Positions 7,253-34,881 of a DNA stretch of 34,881 nucleotides are shown in pieces. The position numbers were made by a program, and so were the translations under genes. This DNA comes from a virus, in IMG/VR virus record IMGVR_UViG_3300020474_000050, positions 1 through 34,881 of that record; one strand, given 5' to 3'. Positions within the stretch are counted from its first letter, which is position 1. The number at the start of each line of letters is the position of its first letter. The notes beneath the pieces are model-generated. The model was not told where the DNA came from. It was given only the letters and a program-made list of their open reading frames with translations, and did not search any database.

Positions 7253-7485
7253 ATGGTAAAGATTGGAATAAGAATGACACTTCATACTACGCAGTTTACT
7301 ACAGAGAAGAGTATGGGGAATCGATTGACGTAGTCACGAATGACTTTGGGGGATGGTTGAAAAAAACCAACGAGGATAGAGTTGATGAAGACCATCCAGA
7401 TTACGAGATATACACAAATAGTAAATATAAACCTGACGATTTTCTATTAAAAGATGTTGAAGTATTTTCAAGGAAGGGAAAATAA
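7249..7485 (+). CDS. Small protein sharing an 11-residue identical segment with the giant virion protein
   Basis: A 78-residue protein, started from an ATGA overlap with AGGAGG upstream. Residues 52-62, YEIYTNSKYKP, are identical in protein and in all 33 bases to a segment of the 1455-residue virion protein (23983-24015). Around this core the similarity fades but keeps a pattern: FGGWLKK before it (residues 33-39) against MGSYLRR, and EVFSR after it against DIFFR. It may be a captured or duplicated piece of the virion protein domain. The function is unknown. Confidence 0.75.
   Translation: MNGKDWNKNDTSYYAVYYREEYGESIDVVTNDFGGWLKKTNEDRVDEDHPDYEIYTNSKYKPDDFLLKDVEVFSRKGK
7402..7434 (+). repeat. 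33-nt exact dispersed repeat, copy 1 (inverted relative to copy 2)
   Basis: The 33 bases 7402-7434 are identical to the reverse complement of 23983-24015. Both copies are exactly 11 in-frame codons (YEIYTNSKYKP). The bases immediately outside differ on both sides. Confidence 0.9.
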
Positions 7486-7906: not shown

Positions 7907-8087
7907 AAAGAAAAAAGATACTTACTACCTTAGAGTTCGAGTAACATATGAAGATGTAGTTGAGGTGAAAGCTAAAGACTTTCACGAGGCACAATGTAAA
8001 GCAGAACAATATGTATTCGACAATATGAATGATGGCATTGAATCAACAACAGAAATAGAGGAGTGGTCAGATGAGTTCCACCACTAG
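7899..8087 (+). CDS. Small protein, unknown function
   Basis: A 62-residue protein starting with a basic run (SKKKK), then RVRVTYEDVVEVKAKDF and a helix with EAQCKAEQYVF, probably a small beta-alpha domain. The start at 7899 lies in the last codons of the preceding gene, and its own end overlaps the methyltransferase by 17 nt. No family recognised. Confidence 0.7.
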   Translation: MSKKKKDTYYLRVRVTYEDVVEVKAKDFHEAQCKAEQYVFDNMNDGIESTTEIEEWSDEFHH

Positions 8088-9537
8088 ACTTAGACACGTA
8101 GATTTATGTAGTGGCATAGGTGGTTTCAGCTTGGGATTTTCTTGGGCTGAATTATCTAAGACCATTATGTTCTGTGACACAGAAAAGTGGTGCAGACAAA
8201 TACTTAACCAAAATTTTCCAAACATACCTATAGCTACAGATGTAAAGGAGTTAGCTAATGACCCAGAAAGACTTGTTCCAGACCACGACATCCTCACGGC
8301 AGGATACCCATGTCAACCCTTCTCCGTCGCGGGACTTAGGAAAGGCGAAAAAGATGACCGCCACATCTGGCCGGACATCTTTAGAATTGTTACATTCAAA
8401 AGACCCTCTTGGTGCGTTTTCGAAAACGTTTATGGTCACGTTGCCTTGGGCCTCGACAAAGTGTTGTCTGACATGGAAAGCCAAGGCTACGCCACACGGA
8501 CGTTTATTGTACCAGCTTGTTCCAAAAATGCTCCCCATAGGAGAGATAGATTATGGATCGTCTGCAAAAATGTGGAGGACTCCAATAGTGGACGACTCGA
8601 AGAACGTAACTCCAAATCCCAAGAGGCATCAAGGTCTGTACGCACAAGTGCAAGAGACGGGGATGGAGAAACTTTGGGCGACACCTCGAGTGGGGGGAGA
8701 GGAAGGCTTCGAGTCAGTAGAGAAGAGGTTGGGGACTCAAGCAGCCAAGAAGCACAATCTGTACTCGCAAGTTCAGTACGAGGAGATGTGGCTGACACCA
8801 ACATCAACCAACATAAACGAGAGGACAGAAGAGGGGATGCAGAAAAGAAAGGAGATGAGAAACAAAAGTGGACGCAACACAGTTCCTCCGGGAAATCTAG
8901 CAGAACAAGTGAAGCATGGGTATCCCATCAAGGACATGCGAGAGAGCAAACTATGGCCTACTCCAAATGCTTGGGATGGGAACAGAGGACCGAGATCCAA
9001 GGAGAATTTGATCGAGAAGAACCATCAGATCAATCTGATCTCAGCGGTGAAGGACGCACAAGATCCAGAACCAGTTCACATGTGGCCTACACCTCGAGCC
9101 AAGGAACCTGGAAGGACGACCAAAGGTTATGGGAGAGGTCTGAAGGAGTTGGTCGAGGGGAAGGAACAACTATGGCCGACACCTCGGGCGAGGGATTACA
9201 AGGACGGAACCTCGATACCACCTTCGATCAAGGAAGGGAAGAGGAGTCACAACTTGGGTACGAAGGTACAAGAGAAGATGTGGCCTACACCATCAGCCAA
9301 CGAGGACGCGGCGGGTCTTCCAGGAGGGAAGATGCAGAAGATGTTGGGCAACCATCCAGAATTAGGGAAGACGAAGGCATCTGGTTCGCTGAACCCGACG
9401 TGGGTAGAGTGGCTCATGGGATATCCAAAAGGGTGGACCGTCTTAAAGGATTAGGTAATGCCATAGTACCACAGTTGGCAATGCAAATTGGATTAGCAAT
9501 TAAAGAGGAGATTGATAATGACAAGCATACGAAGTGA
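8071..9537 (+). CDS. DNA (cytosine-5) methyltransferase with an unusual target-recognition region
   Basis: A 488-residue enzyme that methylates cytosine at C5 using SAM. Seen in order: motif I DLCSGIGGFSLG (11-22), motif IV GYPCQPF with catalytic Cys81, motif VI FENV (117-120), motif VIII HRRDRLWIV (156-164), and motifs IX/X RLKGLGNAIVPQ (457-468). Residues ~170-445, where the target-recognition domain should be, are dominated by Ser, Arg, Glu, Gly and Asp, with VADT/VAYT repeats. The same DNA encodes a second, conserved protein in another frame. It starts 8 nt after GAGGAG. It may protect the phage genome from host restriction; no partner endonuclease is present. Confidence 0.93.
   Translation: MSSTTRLRHVDLCSGIGGFSLGFSWAELSKTIMFCDTEKWCRQILNQNFPNIPIATDVKELANDPERLVPDHDILTAGYPCQPFSVAGLRKGEKDDRHIWPDIFRIVTFKRPSWCVFENVYGHVALGLDKVLSDMESQGYATRTFIVPACSKNAPHRRDRLWIVCKNVEDSNSGRLEERNSKSQEASRSVRTSARDGDGETLGDTSSGGRGRLRVSREEVGDSSSQEAQSVLASSVRGDVADTNINQHKREDRRGDAEKKGDEKQKWTQHSSSGKSSRTSEAWVSHQGHAREQTMAYSKCLGWEQRTEIQGEFDREEPSDQSDLSGEGRTRSRTSSHVAYTSSQGTWKDDQRLWERSEGVGRGEGTTMADTSGEGLQGRNLDTTFDQGREEESQLGYEGTREDVAYTISQRGRGGSSRREDAEDVGQPSRIREDEGIWFAEPDVGRVAHGISKRVDRLKGLGNAIVPQLAMQIGLAIKEEIDNDKHTK
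8258..9454 (+). CDS. Nested (overprinted) gene inside the methyltransferase: WxTP-repeat phage protein
   Basis: A 398-codon frame lies wholly inside the methyltransferase, shifted by one base. It has its own ribosome site, AAAGGAG (8244-8250), 7 nt before the ATG. The protein has a Thr/Ser-rich N-terminus, CCLTWKAKATPHGRLLYQL (about 69-87), seven (M/L)W(P/R/A/L)TP repeats at about residues 105, 139, 177, 232, 275, 305 and 341, and a C-terminal block SLNPTWVEWLMGYPKGWT (377-394). From memory, the WPTP repeats and the LNPxWVEWLMGxPxGWT ending are conserved in a family of phage proteins linked to C5 methyltransferases. The function is unknown; a regulator or partner of the methyltransferase is an inference. 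Confidence 0.8.
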   Translation: MTQKDLFQTTTSSRQDTHVNPSPSRDLGKAKKMTATSGRTSLELLHSKDPLGAFSKTFMVTLPWASTKCCLTWKAKATPHGRLLYQLVPKMLPIGEIDYGSSAKMWRTPIVDDSKNVTPNPKRHQGLYAQVQETGMEKLWATPRVGGEEGFESVEKRLGTQAAKKHNLYSQVQYEEMWLTPTSTNINERTEEGMQKRKEMRNKSGRNTVPPGNLAEQVKHGYPIKDMRESKLWPTPNAWDGNRGPRSKENLIEKNHQINLISAVKDAQDPEPVHMWPTPRAKEPGRTTKGYGRGLKELVEGKEQLWPTPRARDYKDGTSIPPSIKEGKRSHNLGTKVQEKMWPTPSANEDAAGLPGGKMQKMLGNHPELGKTKASGSLNPTWVEWLMGYPKGWTVLKD

Positions 9538-28804: not shown

Positions 28805-29097
28805 GTTGTCACCACCGTTACTGATCCTACGTTTCCTGTTCCAGTAGAACCTCTGACATGAGGTCTATTAACTAAAGGTATCTTAACAAATCCATCGTGA
28901 GAGAACAATCCCCCATTTTCCAATCCCGAATCATCAGTTGGTAGGTCTGTTATAACTAATTTTGTGTGTCGTCCTTCTCCCGGATTTTGTATTTGTTCCA
29001 TGTATAATGAAAAGGCACGAACAATTTCTGCAAAGTATTGTGGAGTATATTGATTTGGTGGTATTGGAAAGAATGGTAATGGTAGATTACGTGACAT
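28801..29097 (-). CDS. Small structural-region protein, unknown function
   Basis: A 98-residue protein with a Pro-rich N-terminus (LPFFPIPPNQYTPQYF), then LVITDLPTDDSGLENGGLFS and a Val/Thr-rich end. The L-P-x-x-D-S-G-L-x-x-G-x-L-(F/Y) segment occurs, to my knowledge, in small phage virion proteins that pair with the neighbouring large tail gene. It is coupled to both neighbours (ATGA overlaps). Confidence 0.75.
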   Translation of the reverse strand: MSRNLPLPFFPIPPNQYTPQYFAEIVRAFSLYMEQIQNPGEGRHTKLVITDLPTDDSGLENGGLFSHDGFVKIPLVNRPHVRGSTGTGNVGSVTVVTT

Positions 29098-31013
29098 TAC
29101 CTTCTCCCGTCTGGACGTATCTCAAGTCTTGGTGTACCTAATCTCCAAGTTACACCTTGATTAACTGATTCTATTCTAAATGCAAAACTTCTACCACGAA
29201 CCCGTATAAATACTTGATCTGTAAACTGTTCAACAGGAACAGATGAAGTCTTTGTTACGTTCTGTGTATCAGATTGAAGATAGTTTCCACCGGGGAAGTT
29301 TCTAGTTTTGATTGTAAAAACTGCTTCTGGTGTGGACACAGAAGAGTTCAAGAACGTAATGTCTGGAACAAGTCTTGTCATAAAAATAAACCTATCGCCC
29401 TCACCTAAATCTATTTGACTTGATTCAATGTGCGCTTCTATAGGTTGAACAGGATCATAGGAACCATCATCAAAACCATTTTCATGTTCATATAAATAAC
29501 CATTACTAGCTGCGATTGGAAAGTCATTTATTCCTCTGTCTATCCAGGCAGTTCTTCCAAGATTACCAAAGTACCAAACCTTTTCTTGGTAATTATATAC
29601 AACATACCTATCTACATTTTCGCTAGAAGAAGATGGATAAAACCACCATATCTCTGAATTAGCACTATTCAAACCAGCTGTTACTTTGTTTGCTTGTAAA
29701 TCATTGAAGTCATCAAAAACATGATCTCTTACGGTGCAAGGTAATTTTTGTACTTGACCAGTATATACATAGAACTCATTTCTACCCATCCAAAACACAC
29801 TATCTTCAATAGCAATAGCTGCTAATGGTCCTCTTACTGTAATGTTTTCTGATATAAGATTAACACCAAAGGTAAAAGGTGGACCTAGAAACTGCATAGA
29901 ATATAAAGACTCATCTGTGAATACCAGTATTTGTTGTCTTGTTTCTTGTGCTGTAATGATCTCAGAACCAGAACCAAGTCTTAATTCACCTGCTGTATTG
30001 GTTGCAGTTGCTGCCCAATCAGTTAGAGATTCTTGGCTCGAGAACCTAATAGACAAAGGATCTTGTACTCCGGGATTAGCTTCTGTATCACAACCAAAAG
30101 CTATAATATGTCTATCTTTATCAGATACCATAATCTGTTTTGCTATAGTAGGTGCGCTAATGGAACCTGCCAAACTACTTAATGCTACTGCCCTAGTACC
30201 TGTACCATTGGTTGCATCCCAATAGTAAATATTACCATTTCTTATATTCATAAGAAGATCTTCACCAAAGTTATCATGTGACCAAATTCTTAAAGTGTCA
30301 GTAGCTAGGTTAATAGTTGCAGCTTCACCCCATCCTGCTCTACCCCATGTTCCAACTCCCCAACCATTACTAAGAACTACAGTATCTATTCCACTATTGA
30401 CTTGATATTGTCCAGTTGTACCACCACCATTACCAGAATCAGAACCATCTGCATTAACCTCAGTAGGAGTATATACTCCATTTACAGATATATCACTTAG
30501 ATCTTGTACAGTTCTTGCTCTAATCGTGTAAGAGTTTGCGTTTACTACCTCATCTATTTTATATTCTTGTTGAAGAATAGCTTTAGTTATTTGACCACCT
30601 AACCCACCTGCAGTAGTTACAGAGCTATAGATAACAAAATCACCTTGTACTGCACCATGACCTGTATGAGTAACAGTAAGTACAGAAGAACCATTTACTG
30701 CAGCAAAAGTTATACCCGTTGCAGCGTTAGTTCTTATTGGAGTAATGTCATAGTATACACCAGATTGTTCAATGTAATACTTTGCATCACAACCAAGACC
30801 AATAAATTTATCAAGGTTTAAAGAAACCCAAGGATGTAATGCACGACAAGTTCCAAGGAACGAGGTAGTAGATTTTTTTAACCAACCACCAATTTTTTCT
30901 GGCAGACCGAATCTAAACCTAACTTTGTCTACATCAAACCAACCACCCTCGTTTGTATAAGAAGTAGTTTCTTTATTAACACCGGGTTTAAATTGAAGTT
31001 TTTGTAAAGGCAT
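29097..31013 (-). CDS. Large tail or head-tail protein (beta-rich)
   Basis: A 638-residue protein opening MPLQKLQFKPGVNKETTSY, then GGWFDVDKVRFRFGLPEKIG and GWLKKSTTSFLG. The Lx-F-x-P-G-(V/I)-N-x-x-x-T...G-W-(F/Y)-D-x-(D/N)-x-(V/I)-R-F-R start is characteristic of a widespread podovirus protein with a beta-rich, possibly propeller-like body. Similarity to P22 gp10-type stabilisation proteins is possible but not provable here. The body has many short strands (Ile/Thr/Val), and the C-terminus (WRLGTPRLEIRPDGRR) is also conserved-looking. It is probably part of the head-tail junction or tail tube. A promoter lies just upstream. Confidence 0.85.
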   Translation of the reverse strand: MPLQKLQFKPGVNKETTSYTNEGGWFDVDKVRFRFGLPEKIGGWLKKSTTSFLGTCRALHPWVSLNLDKFIGLGCDAKYYIEQSGVYYDITPIRTNAATGITFAAVNGSSVLTVTHTGHGAVQGDFVIYSSVTTAGGLGGQITKAILQQEYKIDEVVNANSYTIRARTVQDLSDISVNGVYTPTEVNADGSDSGNGGGTTGQYQVNSGIDTVVLSNGWGVGTWGRAGWGEAATINLATDTLRIWSHDNFGEDLLMNIRNGNIYYWDATNGTGTRAVALSSLAGSISAPTIAKQIMVSDKDRHIIAFGCDTEANPGVQDPLSIRFSSQESLTDWAATATNTAGELRLGSGSEIITAQETRQQILVFTDESLYSMQFLGPPFTFGVNLISENITVRGPLAAIAIEDSVFWMGRNEFYVYTGQVQKLPCTVRDHVFDDFNDLQANKVTAGLNSANSEIWWFYPSSSSENVDRYVVYNYQEKVWYFGNLGRTAWIDRGINDFPIAASNGYLYEHENGFDDGSYDPVQPIEAHIESSQIDLGEGDRFIFMTRLVPDITFLNSSVSTPEAVFTIKTRNFPGGNYLQSDTQNVTKTSSVPVEQFTDQVFIRVRGRSFAFRIESVNQGVTWRLGTPRLEIRPDGRR

Positions 31014-31072: not shown

Positions 31073-31663
31073 CTACAACACCTTTGGGATATCATCTTTA
31101 GGTTTTTCCTTTTGAGATGGAACTTCCATGTAATCTATGATACCATTTATCCTTGGTATTTCTCCAGTATATGCTACTGAATGTGGTAATCTATTGTTGA
31201 TTTCTATTGCATCCCCTTCATACATATCTACTTTTTGACCAGCAATCATAAAGTGCATGTTGTCATAATCTCCATCTATACACCAATGTATTCTATGCGT
31301 AACTCCAAAGTAAGGGTGAGAATCACTATGGTTAGCAATATTACTATTTGGTGCTAACTTAACAAAAATTGCAGTAGTGCAAACAAAAGGTTTATCTAAA
31401 TACTTTTCGCAGAAAGCATCACCAATGGGTTTTACCCATTCCATTAATTTTTCTGTATGTTTATACTGGTGCATGTTTAGATGAGGATAATTACTTCTAT
31501 CTGGAAAGATAGCAGCAATAGTGTTTGTTGCTTTGTGCGCATCAAACTGGTCTTGTCTTTGTGTAAATTCCCCCCAATCTTCGGGTGGTAAACTTTCAAG
31601 AAACTCCTTTACTGGTGTTGGGTCAAATTTACCTATCATTAAACTTCTAGCTATTATATCCAT
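31073..31663 (-). CDS. Aspartyl/asparaginyl beta-hydroxylase-like 2-oxoglutarate/Fe(II) oxygenase
   Basis: A 196-residue protein. NHSDSHPYFGVTHRIHW (from residue 111) gives His112-x-Asp114 of the metal site. NRLPHSVAYTGEIPRI gives the distal His161 and the 2-oxoglutarate-binding Arg171. This HxD...H...R order and the F-G-x-x-H-R-x-H stretch are typical of Asp/Asn beta-hydroxylase-type oxygenases, which hydroxylate a protein or small-molecule carbon with O2. I chose the ATG at 31663 (TAATG overlap; GGAGGA 9 nt upstream) over 31672, where the ribosome site would touch the start codon. It is the last of three coupled modification enzymes. The substrate is unknown. Confidence 0.85.
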   Translation of the reverse strand: MDIIARSLMIGKFDPTPVKEFLESLPPEDWGEFTQRQDQFDAHKATNTIAAIFPDRSNYPHLNMHQYKHTEKLMEWVKPIGDAFCEKYLDKPFVCTTAIFVKLAPNSNIANHSDSHPYFGVTHRIHWCIDGDYDNMHFMIAGQKVDMYEGDAIEINNRLPHSVAYTGEIPRINGIIDYMEVPSQKEKPKDDIPKVL

Positions 31664-32463
31664 TATATCCATTCCTCCCAGAATATGTTGTAACGTTCTC
31701 TTAAATTGTTTGCGAAAGGTTCTACTCTGCCTAAGTCAGTTCTTCCAGATCGCATTTCTTTTTCAATAGTGTGCATAGTATCGTACATTCCATAGTGTCG
31801 ATCAAGTTGTTTATTTGCATTTTGAATGTTGTTTGTTTGAAAATTAAAAGCACTAGCTCCTATGTAGTCACAAAGTTTATTTAATTCTTTTTGTGGGTTA
31901 GCACAAAGTTTATGATAATCTATAAACAAAAAGTCTTTAGCTCTTTGTTGGATTACAGATGCTTCATACAAAGCAGTATACGTTCTACCTATGGCTCCTT
32001 TGTAACTCATAAACTCTTCAACCAATCCTAATGTAGTAGGATAAAGTTCTTGTTTTACTAAATCAGTTTCGTATGCTGTATAAGTAATTGGTTCTTTTTC
32101 TTTCAGACGTAAGAAAGAAGCAACACATTCTACAGGATCACGAACCAAAACTACAACTTTATAGTCATCAAAAACTTGATCTGCCATGTCCAAATAAAAA
32201 AGCCACTCTCTATTCTTATCAAACACAAATTGATTGTGTGAATATAAATAAGAATGCAAAGATCCTTTTAATACTTTTAAACATTCTTTTTGTTGGTTAG
32301 TAGCCAATGACTTTGCATTATTATAAAATACATTTCGTATAGCATTTGAAATACCAATCGACAAAGATCCTTCTATAACTTTAAAATCGTCATGTTGACT
32401 CAACAACCCACACAAAATGGTGGATCCACTTCGTGGAAGACTAAATAAAATTACTGGCTTCAT
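31663..32463 (-). CDS. Sulfotransferase (PAPS-dependent)
   Basis: A 266-residue cytoplasmic-type sulfotransferase. The 5'-phosphosulfate-binding loop is FSLPRSGSTILCG (7-19), with the PRSGST form of the P-loop-like motif. The 3'-phosphate-binding strand is VVVLVRDPVECVASFLR, with Arg and Ser in the usual places. It would transfer sulfate from PAPS to a hydroxyl or amino acceptor. It starts at an ATGA overlap with the methyltransferase and is followed by the hydroxylase in TAATG, so the three are co-translated. Sulfation of a surface glycan or tail protein is an inference; the acceptor cannot be read from sequence. Confidence 0.9.
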   Translation of the reverse strand: MKPVILFSLPRSGSTILCGLLSQHDDFKVIEGSLSIGISNAIRNVFYNNAKSLATNQQKECLKVLKGSLHSYLYSHNQFVFDKNREWLFYLDMADQVFDDYKVVVLVRDPVECVASFLRLKEKEPITYTAYETDLVKQELYPTTLGLVEEFMSYKGAIGRTYTALYEASVIQQRAKDFLFIDYHKLCANPQKELNKLCDYIGASAFNFQTNNIQNANKQLDRHYGMYDTMHTIEKEMRSGRTDLGRVEPFANNLRERYNIFWEEWI

Positions 32464-33110
32464 ACGTCTGCGGTTACTAGAATATTACCTGCCCAATTAG
32501 AAGAATAAGAGCTTGGATTTTTCCAAGTAAGACTACTATACGAACTATCTAAATAAGATTTTATATTATTTATAGTAGGAACTTTAGTTTTTGCATACCA
32601 ATTACCTACTCCAGAATCTGGATTAGTTCTTTCTACAGAATCAGCAGAGGTACATACAGGTCCTTCAAGAATAAGTTTATCTCCAAAACTAGCTAGTTTT
32701 GTTATAAGTGTGGATTGAGTAGTTCCAAGATGGATCATGCCTGCACAAAAAACTACATCAATATCAGCAGGTGCTGTATAATCTTCCCACTTAGAAATCG
32801 CTAAAGTATATTTGGAAGTAGCAAAGTATTTTTGTAAATTAGTATTAGCAACACCAATGACACCACTATCAGAATCAATACCAACAACGTGACTTGCGTT
32901 TTGATCTAATAGCCAACTCATCCATCTTCCATTGTTGCAACCTACATCAAGAACTTTTTTACCACTAACTAAAGATGCAATACTATTAAAAAACGTAGCT
33001 CTGTCATTTAGTACCGTTTTAGAAATACCTGTTCCTTTGGATCCTACGTTCTGTTCAGTAAGTCCATCTGCTTCGTCCGTAAAATCTAATTTGTCATTGA
33101 AGTAAGTCAT
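32460..33110 (-). CDS. SAM-dependent class I methyltransferase
   Basis: A 216-residue protein with motif I KKVLDVGCNNGRWMSWLL (51-68), VGIDSD (76-81) as the acidic ribose-binding loop, and VVFCAGMIHLG (motif IV region). It is a standalone Rossmann methyltransferase, not DNA-specific by any visible signature. Its start overlaps the previous gene by 17 nt; it ends in ATGA with the sulfotransferase. A small-molecule, sugar or protein acceptor is likely; the context suggests a shared product with the two neighbours. Confidence 0.85.
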   Translation of the reverse strand: MTYFNDKLDFTDEADGLTEQNVGSKGTGISKTVLNDRATFFNSIASLVSGKKVLDVGCNNGRWMSWLLDQNASHVVGIDSDSGVIGVANTNLQKYFATSKYTLAISKWEDYTAPADIDVVFCAGMIHLGTTQSTLITKLASFGDKLILEGPVCTSADSVERTNPDSGVGNWYAKTKVPTINNIKSYLDSSYSSLTWKNPSSYSSNWAGNILVTADV

Positions 33111-33927
33111 CTGGTTCTAACCTTATGTTTGCTAATTGTACGAGATCTTCTATTGTATCTAAATGATTTAAATATTGTATAGCATTTGATTCAACTTTGC
33201 GAACATAATCTGTTACGTGTTTACAAAACTTCACCATAGTTTCTTCATTCATTGTTACTGTCCTGCCCGAAGAATCATACCACTCAAAATCTTCTGGTAT
33301 ATCATTGTGACTTGCTCTTAGCCCAAGCAAAGATATGTAAGCAATGTTTCTAAACTTCAAGTCATAGTGTCTGTTACCAAATTCAAAACCTTCCGCCCAA
33401 ATCATATCTTTACAAAAATCTAAATTATCTTTTTTGCTGTGCATAATTTCTTCTCTACCAAACTCGTGAACTTCAAAAAATTCTATTGCGTTTGGGCTAC
33501 CATCTCCTGCTAGTCTGTAACGAGGATCCATTCGATAGGCTTTGTGATATACATGTTTGTATTTATCAAAATTAAAAGGAACCACTCTAAGTATACCTAG
33601 CTCCCATAGTTTACTATCATAAGTATTTTCATCCAAGATATGTCCATGAAAATTTATTACTGGATCTACATATTCCGCAGTAAATCTACCATCCATGTAT
33701 CTTACCCATTTAGGACCGGGTACATGTTTCCATTGTTTTTTATATTTTTCTTTATCTTTTTTTGCTCCTACTGGATTACCTACCCATGACCGAGGCGCCA
33801 TAGAATTTACCCAAAAGTCATCTGGATAATCTCTATACCCATTTGGTTTCAATGGATACTTCTTATCTTTTTCTACATCATAATTAAAAAACTCATCATA
33901 TTTAAGTCTATTTGGATCAAATCCCAT
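33094..33927 (-). CDS. Tail-region protein with DUF4376-like C-terminus
   Basis: A 277-residue protein. The last ~75 residues (SGRTVTMNEETMVKFCKHVT, DYVRKVESNAIQYLNHLDTI, then EDLVQLANI) resemble the DUF4376 domain found next to tail fibres, with helices arranged as a chaperone-like module. The first ~200 residues are charged, Tyr/Trp/Pro-rich, and not recognised. It starts after GGAGGAAAGG and lies directly downstream of the tail fibre gene; a tail assembly role is inferred. Confidence 0.7.
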   Translation of the reverse strand: MGFDPNRLKYDEFFNYDVEKDKKYPLKPNGYRDYPDDFWVNSMAPRSWVGNPVGAKKDKEKYKKQWKHVPGPKWVRYMDGRFTAEYVDPVINFHGHILDENTYDSKLWELGILRVVPFNFDKYKHVYHKAYRMDPRYRLAGDGSPNAIEFFEVHEFGREEIMHSKKDNLDFCKDMIWAEGFEFGNRHYDLKFRNIAYISLLGLRASHNDIPEDFEWYDSSGRTVTMNEETMVKFCKHVTDYVRKVESNAIQYLNHLDTIEDLVQLANIRLEPDDLLQ

Positions 33928-33939
33928 GCCTTTCCTCCA

Positions 33940-34842
33940 TTAACTCCATGACACTTTGGCATACCCAACGTTTGAATTTTGTCCTACTGTAGTATCGTGA
34001 TAAGTACCAGCTGTCAAAGTACCACCCGTTGATTTACTTGAGCCAGAGTGACCACCATAATTACCTGTGTTGTTTGCAGGACCACCACCATTTTCTCCAC
34101 CACCAGAACCACCAGAAGTATAGTAACAACGACCACCACTATTACTTTCTCCATTAGTACCATTATTATTTGTGATTACACGACCACCACCAAATACATT
34201 ATTGTCTGTAGCTAAAGCTGCATCCGCATCACTTGCTCTACAATAATGATAAATGTTACTATAATTATAATAGGTTTGCCCTCTATCTGGTCTACCAGAA
34301 GCACCACCACCACCAGCAGAAAGATGAACACTATTACCAGCTGCGTTGTAAGCAACCGTAGCGCATCCTCCCGGAGCGCCAGAATAATTTACTTGATTGG
34401 CGCGAGTAGCTTCTGATCCAGAATAAACATTAGCCGCAGTACCAGAACGCCAAGCGTACTTAGCAGCACCTGCTTGTGTCGAACCATCTGGAGTTCTAAA
34501 AGCTAGATCTGTAGGATCCATACTAGTATGCACAACTTTAGATGCTTTACCTACTAATTGTCCCGGGCCACAACCAGGTGTAAAACCATTGTTTGCTTGT
34601 GGTTGATTAAAGATTACATCACTAGGGTTCCAACCTCTATTGGAATTTGGTGTATAAACATTTGAACCATTAACACCTATAATTTCAACCGTTACCGTTG
34701 AATACCCAACGGGTTGATAAGATGCTTGTAAGTTTTGTGAGTCAGAAGCAAACCAACTTCCCGCTGCTTCACCACCACCACCAGCTATGCCACAGCCATA
34801 ACCTCTGGCTGAAGCTGCTCCGAACGTTGCTAATATAGGCAT
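33940..34842 (-). CDS. Glycine-rich tail fibre or receptor-binding protein
   Basis: A 300-residue protein. The start MPILATFGAASARGYG is typical of Gly-rich phage tail proteins. Gly/Ser/Asn-rich stretches (GGGGASG, YYTSGGSGGGENGGGP, GNYGGHSGSS) alternate with short strands, and it ends VGYAKVSWS, a common C-terminal signature. Such proteins fold as polyglycine-rich adhesin tips that determine host range. It has a very strong ribosome site (AAAGGAGG, 34847-34854). It heads the tail-modification block. Confidence 0.85.
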   Translation of the reverse strand: MPILATFGAASARGYGCGIAGGGGEAAGSWFASDSQNLQASYQPVGYSTVTVEIIGVNGSNVYTPNSNRGWNPSDVIFNQPQANNGFTPGCGPGQLVGKASKVVHTSMDPTDLAFRTPDGSTQAGAAKYAWRSGTAANVYSGSEATRANQVNYSGAPGGCATVAYNAAGNSVHLSAGGGGASGRPDRGQTYYNYSNIYHYCRASDADAALATDNNVFGGGRVITNNNGTNGESNSGGRCYYTSGGSGGGENGGGPANNTGNYGGHSGSSKSTGGTLTAGTYHDTTVGQNSNVGYAKVSWS

Positions 34843-34852
34843 TTATCCTCCT

Positions 34853-34881
34853 TTACGCAAATTGAACTTGACTAGCTAATA
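34853..34881 (-). CDS. C-terminal end of an upstream tail gene (partial)
   Basis: The open minus-strand frame from the right edge reads LASQVQFA and then stops (TAA at 34855-34853), just before the ribosome site of the tail gene. The length is too short to identify a family. The composition is compatible with the end of a tail protein, but only neighbouring sequence would confirm it. Confidence 0.45.

Follow-up and report, generated by a model that had tools for sequence, protein, structure and literature searches.

A coupled methyltransferase, sulfotransferase and hydroxylase gene set beside a putative adhesin in a podovirus-like phage: candidate enzymes for adhesin modification

Three enzyme genes of a podovirus-like phage, encoding a class I SAM methyltransferase (MT), a PAPS sulfotransferase (ST) and an Asp/Arg hydroxylase-type 2-oxoglutarate (2OG)-Fe(II) oxygenase, lie directly behind the genes for a glycine-rich protein and a 277-aa protein in the adhesin/fibre slot of the tail locus, and this five-gene run, with its order and overlaps unchanged, recurs in a diverged second lineage whose tail backbone has a different closest relative. 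It is proposed, with moderate confidence, that the enzymes are made late in infection and modify the adhesin (or its fibre) within an interchangeable five-gene receptor-binding module. The window, the whole stretch of DNA analysed here, is a virus record of 34,881 bases in which the DNA polymerase, primase and helicase genes are mostly on the plus strand and the tail genes on the minus strand, the latter being translated in the order glycine-rich protein, 277-aa protein, MT, ST, hydroxylase, 638-aa tail protein.

The enzyme genes and their neighbours

All three enzyme ORFs are intact. MT (32460..33110, minus strand; 216 aa) carries motif I as VLDVGCNNG and matches Methyltransf_25 (Pfam PF13649) at 9.7e-10 (39.5 bits, Pfam cut-off 27); in NCBIfam its top-scoring profiles, among them CmoB-type and PrmA-type methyltransferases, all stay far below the cut-off. 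ST (31663..32463, minus strand; 266 aa) matches Sulfotransfer_3 (PF13469) at 5.5e-19 and phrog_27463 at 7e-29, with Pfam scores of 69.7 bits in the window and 64.2 in the diverged relative L005 (cut-off 27). The hydroxylase (31073..31672, minus strand) matches Asp_Arg_Hydrox (PF05118) at 2.4e-5, with 24.7 bits in the window and 26.3 in L005 (cut-off 22.6), and all three enzymes of L005 likewise score above the Pfam cut-offs. The hydroxylase comprises 199 aa from the first ATG and 196 aa from the ATG at 31663, the latter being the likely start given the TAATG junction with ST, a GGGAGG about 10 nt upstream and alignment with the start in L005. The MT gene overlaps that of the 277-aa protein by 17 nt, MT and ST share a 4-nt ATGA, and ST meets the hydroxylase at TAATG; ORF calls and Pfam thereby bear out every enzyme family and junction that a prior sequence-only reading had assigned. 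A strong Shine-Dalgarno sequence precedes the glycine-rich gene and none of their own is evident for MT and ST, so that these two are probably translated in coupling with the tail genes upstream of them.

The cofactor-binding residues are intact. In ST these are the PAPS-binding motifs LPRSGST (5'-phosphosulfate loop) and R108...S116 (3'-phosphate), the latter and an LPRSGST-type loop being kept in six phage homologues (alignment A7), and a DKNR motif is common to the window ST and cyanophage sulfotransferases. The nearest solved structures are polyketide synthase (PKS)/CurM sulfotransferases and the protein-tyrosine sulfotransferases TPST1/2 (TPST1 at E 6e-11 and TPST1/2 at about 1e-10 against the ST profile, with a slightly better score for the PKS sulfotransferase domain); TPST1/2 are thus the nearest non-polyketide solved relatives, but are eukaryotic enzymes. 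Action of ST on a hydroxyl-bearing side chain would fit this pairing, as a fit and not a proof. In the hydroxylase, the Fe(II)/2OG ligands H115-x-D117, H164 and R174 are present and, by inspection, invariant in both lineages. A PDB search with the hydroxylase gave no meaningful match, its AlphaFold2 model from a two-sequence alignment is of low confidence (pLDDT 38), a profile search of genome contigs returned only two weak matches in Chryseobacterium, and Asp_Arg_Hydrox was absent from the 15 related phage records searched.

The first gene of the run (33940..34842, minus strand) encodes a 300-aa protein of 19% Gly and 10% Asn, with 18 Tyr, which matched no Pfam, PHROG or PDB entry and no gp38- or Pam3 gp24-type adhesin profile or structure. 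Its composition and position, together with a short N-terminal motif, PILATFGAASARGY, that it has in common with the one-gene adhesin of the locus L046, are the grounds for designating it a putative distal receptor-binding adhesin; the motif reads MLASFGGGSARGF in L046 and ILATFGAASARGY in the window, the distal part is not common to the two, and the match is statistically weak (21 columns, hhalign E 0.004, probability only 8.6%). Glycine-rich distal receptor-binding proteins are known: gp24 of cyanophage Pam3, a receptor-binding fibre of this composition, has its own dedicated chaperone (PMC9608196). Pam3 gp24/gp25 and gp38 of phage S16 resemble the putative adhesin in this respect, but differ in that modifying enzymes are not described for them and sequence similarity to the window protein was not detected.

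The 277-aa protein (33094..33927, minus strand), which might conceivably be a fibre-assembly chaperone or adhesin partner, has a C-terminal DUF4376-like region (E 0.0053, 17.6 bits; E 0.0027, 18.6 bits for its homologue in L005; neither reaches the cut-off of 25) and a low-confidence AlphaFold2 model from a two-sequence alignment (pLDDT 36); the sequence-only reading had called it a tail protein, and its family matches are limited to these sub-threshold DUF4376 hits. Downstream of the five genes, and outside the proposed module, lies a 638-aa tail/stabilization protein (29097..31013, minus strand; phrog_3287, 1.3e-70), 39% identical to the stabilization protein of DSL-LC04 and 35% to the homologue in HTVC027P. 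The ‘large tail gene’ of the sequence-only reading is this protein, annotated as a stabilization protein in a relative.

Several further features of the record were observed. The window is a fragment, as a 457-aa gene (3-1373) runs off its start; the near-identical contig L002 extends 7.6 kb upstream of the glycine-rich gene, beyond the window end at 34842-34881, into adaptor and fibre genes, and via this contig a 79-nt stretch at 7402-7475 was found to be 82% similar to sequence within the tail-gene half of that contig, a small dispersed repeat. A DNA methyltransferase (8071-9537; phrog_363, 1e-64) has an unusually long internal region, 477 residues being matched to 265 profile positions.

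Conservation and exchange of the five genes

L002 (99.97% identical to the window) carries all five genes in this order, and so does a diverged lineage of two contigs, L005 and L006, identical across 13,202 shared bases, in which the 17-nt and 4-nt overlaps are also the same. Amino acid identity between the window and L005 is 48% for the glycine-rich protein, 48% for the 277-aa protein, 52% for MT, 57% for ST and 70% for the hydroxylase; for comparison, the 638-aa tail protein is 67% identical, and the values for other structural proteins range over 31-87%. dN is 0.25-0.53 (0.25-0.46 for the three enzymes) against saturated dS, indicating strong purifying selection. Low dN with saturated dS, together with the invariant cofactor motifs, implies that the enzymes are under selection to work, and retention of order and overlaps at 48-70% identity implies that the cassette is not a chance assembly. 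Recent random insertion was rejected in view of the presence of the module in two diverged phages and of purifying selection. The three-enzyme cassette described from the sequence is therefore real and coupled as stated there, its order of translation being corrected to MT, ST, hydroxylase, and the same gene order in other phages, which that description had pointed to as a check, was found in L005/L006; the conserved unit is nonetheless longer, extending upstream to the glycine-rich gene. Module carriers comprise only these two lineages: IMG/VR profile scans with MT, ST and hydroxylase, based on short peptide patterns that may miss distant copies, found no third.

The 638-aa tail protein served as a backbone marker for comparison of the slot. 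An alignment of seven homologues retrieved 80 further IMG/VR loci, of which 48 include 2.5 kb or more of sequence upstream, and relatives of any of the five genes were found neither in these 80 loci nor in six published relatives. Upstream of the tail protein, gene content is syntenic as far as the fibre gene fib425 in closer relatives and then varies from phage to phage, the slot being filled by a single 342-aa glycine-rich adhesin (PF12810) in L046, a GP38-type adhesin in L109, a Gly_rich_2 protein in HTVC023P and large fibres in others. In the tail protein tree, L005 is sister to L046, the one-gene adhesin holder (support 100/100; 80% identity), and the window, to which L005 is 67% identical, groups with L035 (89/93); a single clade of the two carriers is rejected (AU p 9e-5), and other backbone genes agree with the L005–L046 grouping. 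Plain inheritance with the backbone was accordingly rejected by the AU test, although the same pattern could also arise if other lineages had undergone repeated replacement. The simplest reading of these trees and gene contents is that exchange or replacement has affected the five genes together, without regard to the backbone, and, with carriers that are not sisters and a hypervariable slot, they appear to behave as one interchangeable receptor-binding module.

Joint conservation, coupling and exchange in two lineages with non-sister tail-scaffold proteins support the earlier view of the three enzymes as one unit, and weigh against the possibility that they are separate accessory genes acting on different substrates (for example, MT on a translation factor or tRNA and ST on a metabolite) and co-inherited by linkage only. 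The breadth of the MT family, with its sub-cut-off CmoB-/PrmA-type resemblance, is in keeping with such independence, as is the occurrence of distant ST and hydroxylase homologues alone in other phages; independent occurrence, which the sequence-only reading had named as evidence against a unit, was seen in those distant homologues and in none of the 80 scaffold relatives. With the 17-nt and 4-nt overlaps kept and the genes exchanged jointly with the adhesin in two backbones, separate functions are considered unlikely.

Related arrangements in other marine phages

Oxygenase genes occupy the corresponding position in several pelagiphage-like tail loci, where one to three 2OG-Fe(II) oxygenases come after glycine-rich adhesins or collar genes within the receptor-binding slot (L027 7369-8982; L025 7292-8953; L041 82-2309; L055 1716-4395). 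Pelagiphages HTVC023P and HTVC027P have the same tail backbone (a 638-aa homologue) and the same slot as the window; in HTVC023P a glycine-rich adhesin is followed directly by a 2OG-FeII_Oxy_5 gene and then by the 638-aa homologue, the HTVC027P slot holds three 2OG enzymes, and L041 and L055 encode glycine-rich proteins with 2OG enzymes. The oxygenases of these two pelagiphages differ from the window enzyme in being of the 2OG-FeII_Oxy_3/5 families, and neither sulfotransferase nor methyltransferase was seen in their slot. A 2OG oxygenase was present in 4/9 loci with a glycine-rich adhesin in the slot against 2/40 otherwise (Fisher p 0.007), a hand count with thresholds set post hoc that is only suggestive.

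A second parallel is found in T4-like cyanophages, where S-SKS1, AG-345-L05 and AG-345-O18 encode sulfotransferases of a family homologous to ST (24-39% identity, alignment A7) beside fibres and 2OG oxygenases. In these phages and in many of the loci L170-L192, the ST homologues are flanked by GYxxGG-repeat fibres on one side and by prolyl-4-hydroxylase-like or DUF6445 oxygenases on the other; the loci differ from the window in their large GYxxGG-repeat fibres, other oxygenase families and, often, glycosyltransferases, and no coupled MT–ST–hydroxylase unit was seen in those of S-SKS1 and AG-345. A glycine-rich or repeat fibre lies within 3 kb of the sulfotransferase in 22 of 33 sulfotransferase clusters, ten of these 22 also having a 2OG oxygenase; 2OG genes are similarly frequent beyond 3 kb from the sulfotransferase and within it (10/178 vs 29/377 ORFs), so that their co-location is not specific. 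Homologues also occur elsewhere, with a sulfotransferase away from fibres in S-SCSM1 and a distant hydroxylase homologue among hypothetical genes in BUCT-ZZ01.

Within the cyanophage loci L113 1-13848, L031 729-6037 and L170-L192, enzymes of three kinds (DUF6445/2OG oxygenases, sulfotransferases and prolyl-4-hydroxylase-like enzymes) alternate with GYxxGG-repeat fibres, and GT1 glycosyltransferases and a carbamoyltransferase are present in some cases. Downstream of the sulfotransferase locus of Marine virus AG-345-O18, two neighbouring genes (L031 10016-13161) encode strikingly cysteine-rich proteins of 758 and 290 aa, and the prolyl-4-hydroxylase-like gene beside the sulfotransferase of S-SKS1 (L030 6226-6887) consists of two overlapping ORFs, as if by frameshift or sequencing error.

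Candidate substrates and implications for host recognition

In the proposed mechanism, this podovirus-like marine phage would have a receptor-binding module that is interchangeable between phages, its five genes running from 34842 to 31073, in which the glycine-rich protein would be the distal adhesin and the 277-aa protein would probably aid its folding or assembly. MT, ST and the 2OG hydroxylase, co-made by coupled translation late in infection, would modify side chains of the adhesin (or fibre) before virion completion, so that the surface in contact with the receptor would gain a fixed negative charge from sulfate and be altered in polarity and hydrogen bonding by the hydroxyl and methyl groups; enzyme activity itself, and the order and chemistry of the reactions, are presumed. 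The linkage of the enzymes to one adhesin type, and the parallel placement of oxygenases and sulfotransferases near fibres, would favour the adhesin as substrate; of the targets listed by the sequence-only reading, a tail protein gains most. Successive modification of a single substrate, with hydroxylation supplying a site for sulfation, as that reading suggested, is conjectural.

The closest competitor, which is less probable than adhesin modification but still to be taken seriously, is that the enzymes modify a glycan, whether host lipopolysaccharide or capsule, blocking superinfection or aiding progeny release, or a virion-attached glycan, and lie beside the adhesin since they alter its receptor. 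Sugars are commonly O-methylated and sulfated, sulfotransferases of the ST family in other phages occur in clusters that also encode GT2/GT1 glycosyltransferases, methyltransferases and a carbamoyltransferase, and enzymes and adhesin matched to the same receptor would also yield linkage to one adhesin type. However, GT2 was not found in the L002, L005 and L006 records, nor GT1 in these or the window (a search of two families in records that may be fragments), and the enzyme genes belong to the run of structural genes, where their translation is coupled to that of tail genes, and not to the early genes; to our knowledge, moreover, Asp_Arg_Hydrox enzymes are not usual sugar modifiers. Synthesis or tailoring of a small molecule acting on the host or competitors is very improbable, as the PKS sulfotransferase domains that stand just ahead of protein-tyrosine sulfotransferases as the nearest structures to the ST profile are offset by the adhesin-slot placement, the structural-gene context and the lack of a biosynthetic core gene nearby.

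For the capsid of mycobacteriophage Maravista, phage-encoded enzymes have been proposed to act on virion proteins (PMC11256854); mycobacteriophage virion glycosylation differs in its glycosyltransferases and capsid target from sulfation, methylation or hydroxylation of an adhesin. The 2OG-Fe(II) oxygenases of pelagiphages are classed as auxiliary metabolic genes of unknown substrate (PMC9599517), and marine-phage papers list 2OG oxygenases and sulfotransferases alike under this heading, with a role unknown or, going by neighbouring genes, assumed to be in DNA repair (PMC10580990, PMC9146016, PMC11288001, PMC9599517). Among the open-licence papers searched, none was found on sulfation or hydroxylation of a phage adhesin by enzymes, and none that brings together oxygenase, sulfotransferase and post-translational modification with the tail fibre of a phage.

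More broadly, and more tentatively than for the window itself, it may be that marine phages decorate their receptor-binding tips, with the swapped adhesin and MT–ST–hydroxylase unit as one instance and the fibre-locus 2OG oxygenases and sulfotransferases of cyanophages and pelagiphages as the same kind of virion-modifying enzyme. If so, sulfated, hydroxylated and methylated side chains would form part of the host-recognition surface, and phage-encoded sulfation and hydroxylation would be virion modifications exchanged together with the adhesin, providing an extra layer of host-recognition diversity invisible to sequence-based host prediction, and a concrete, testable substrate for many of the 2OG oxygenases and sulfotransferases of marine phages.
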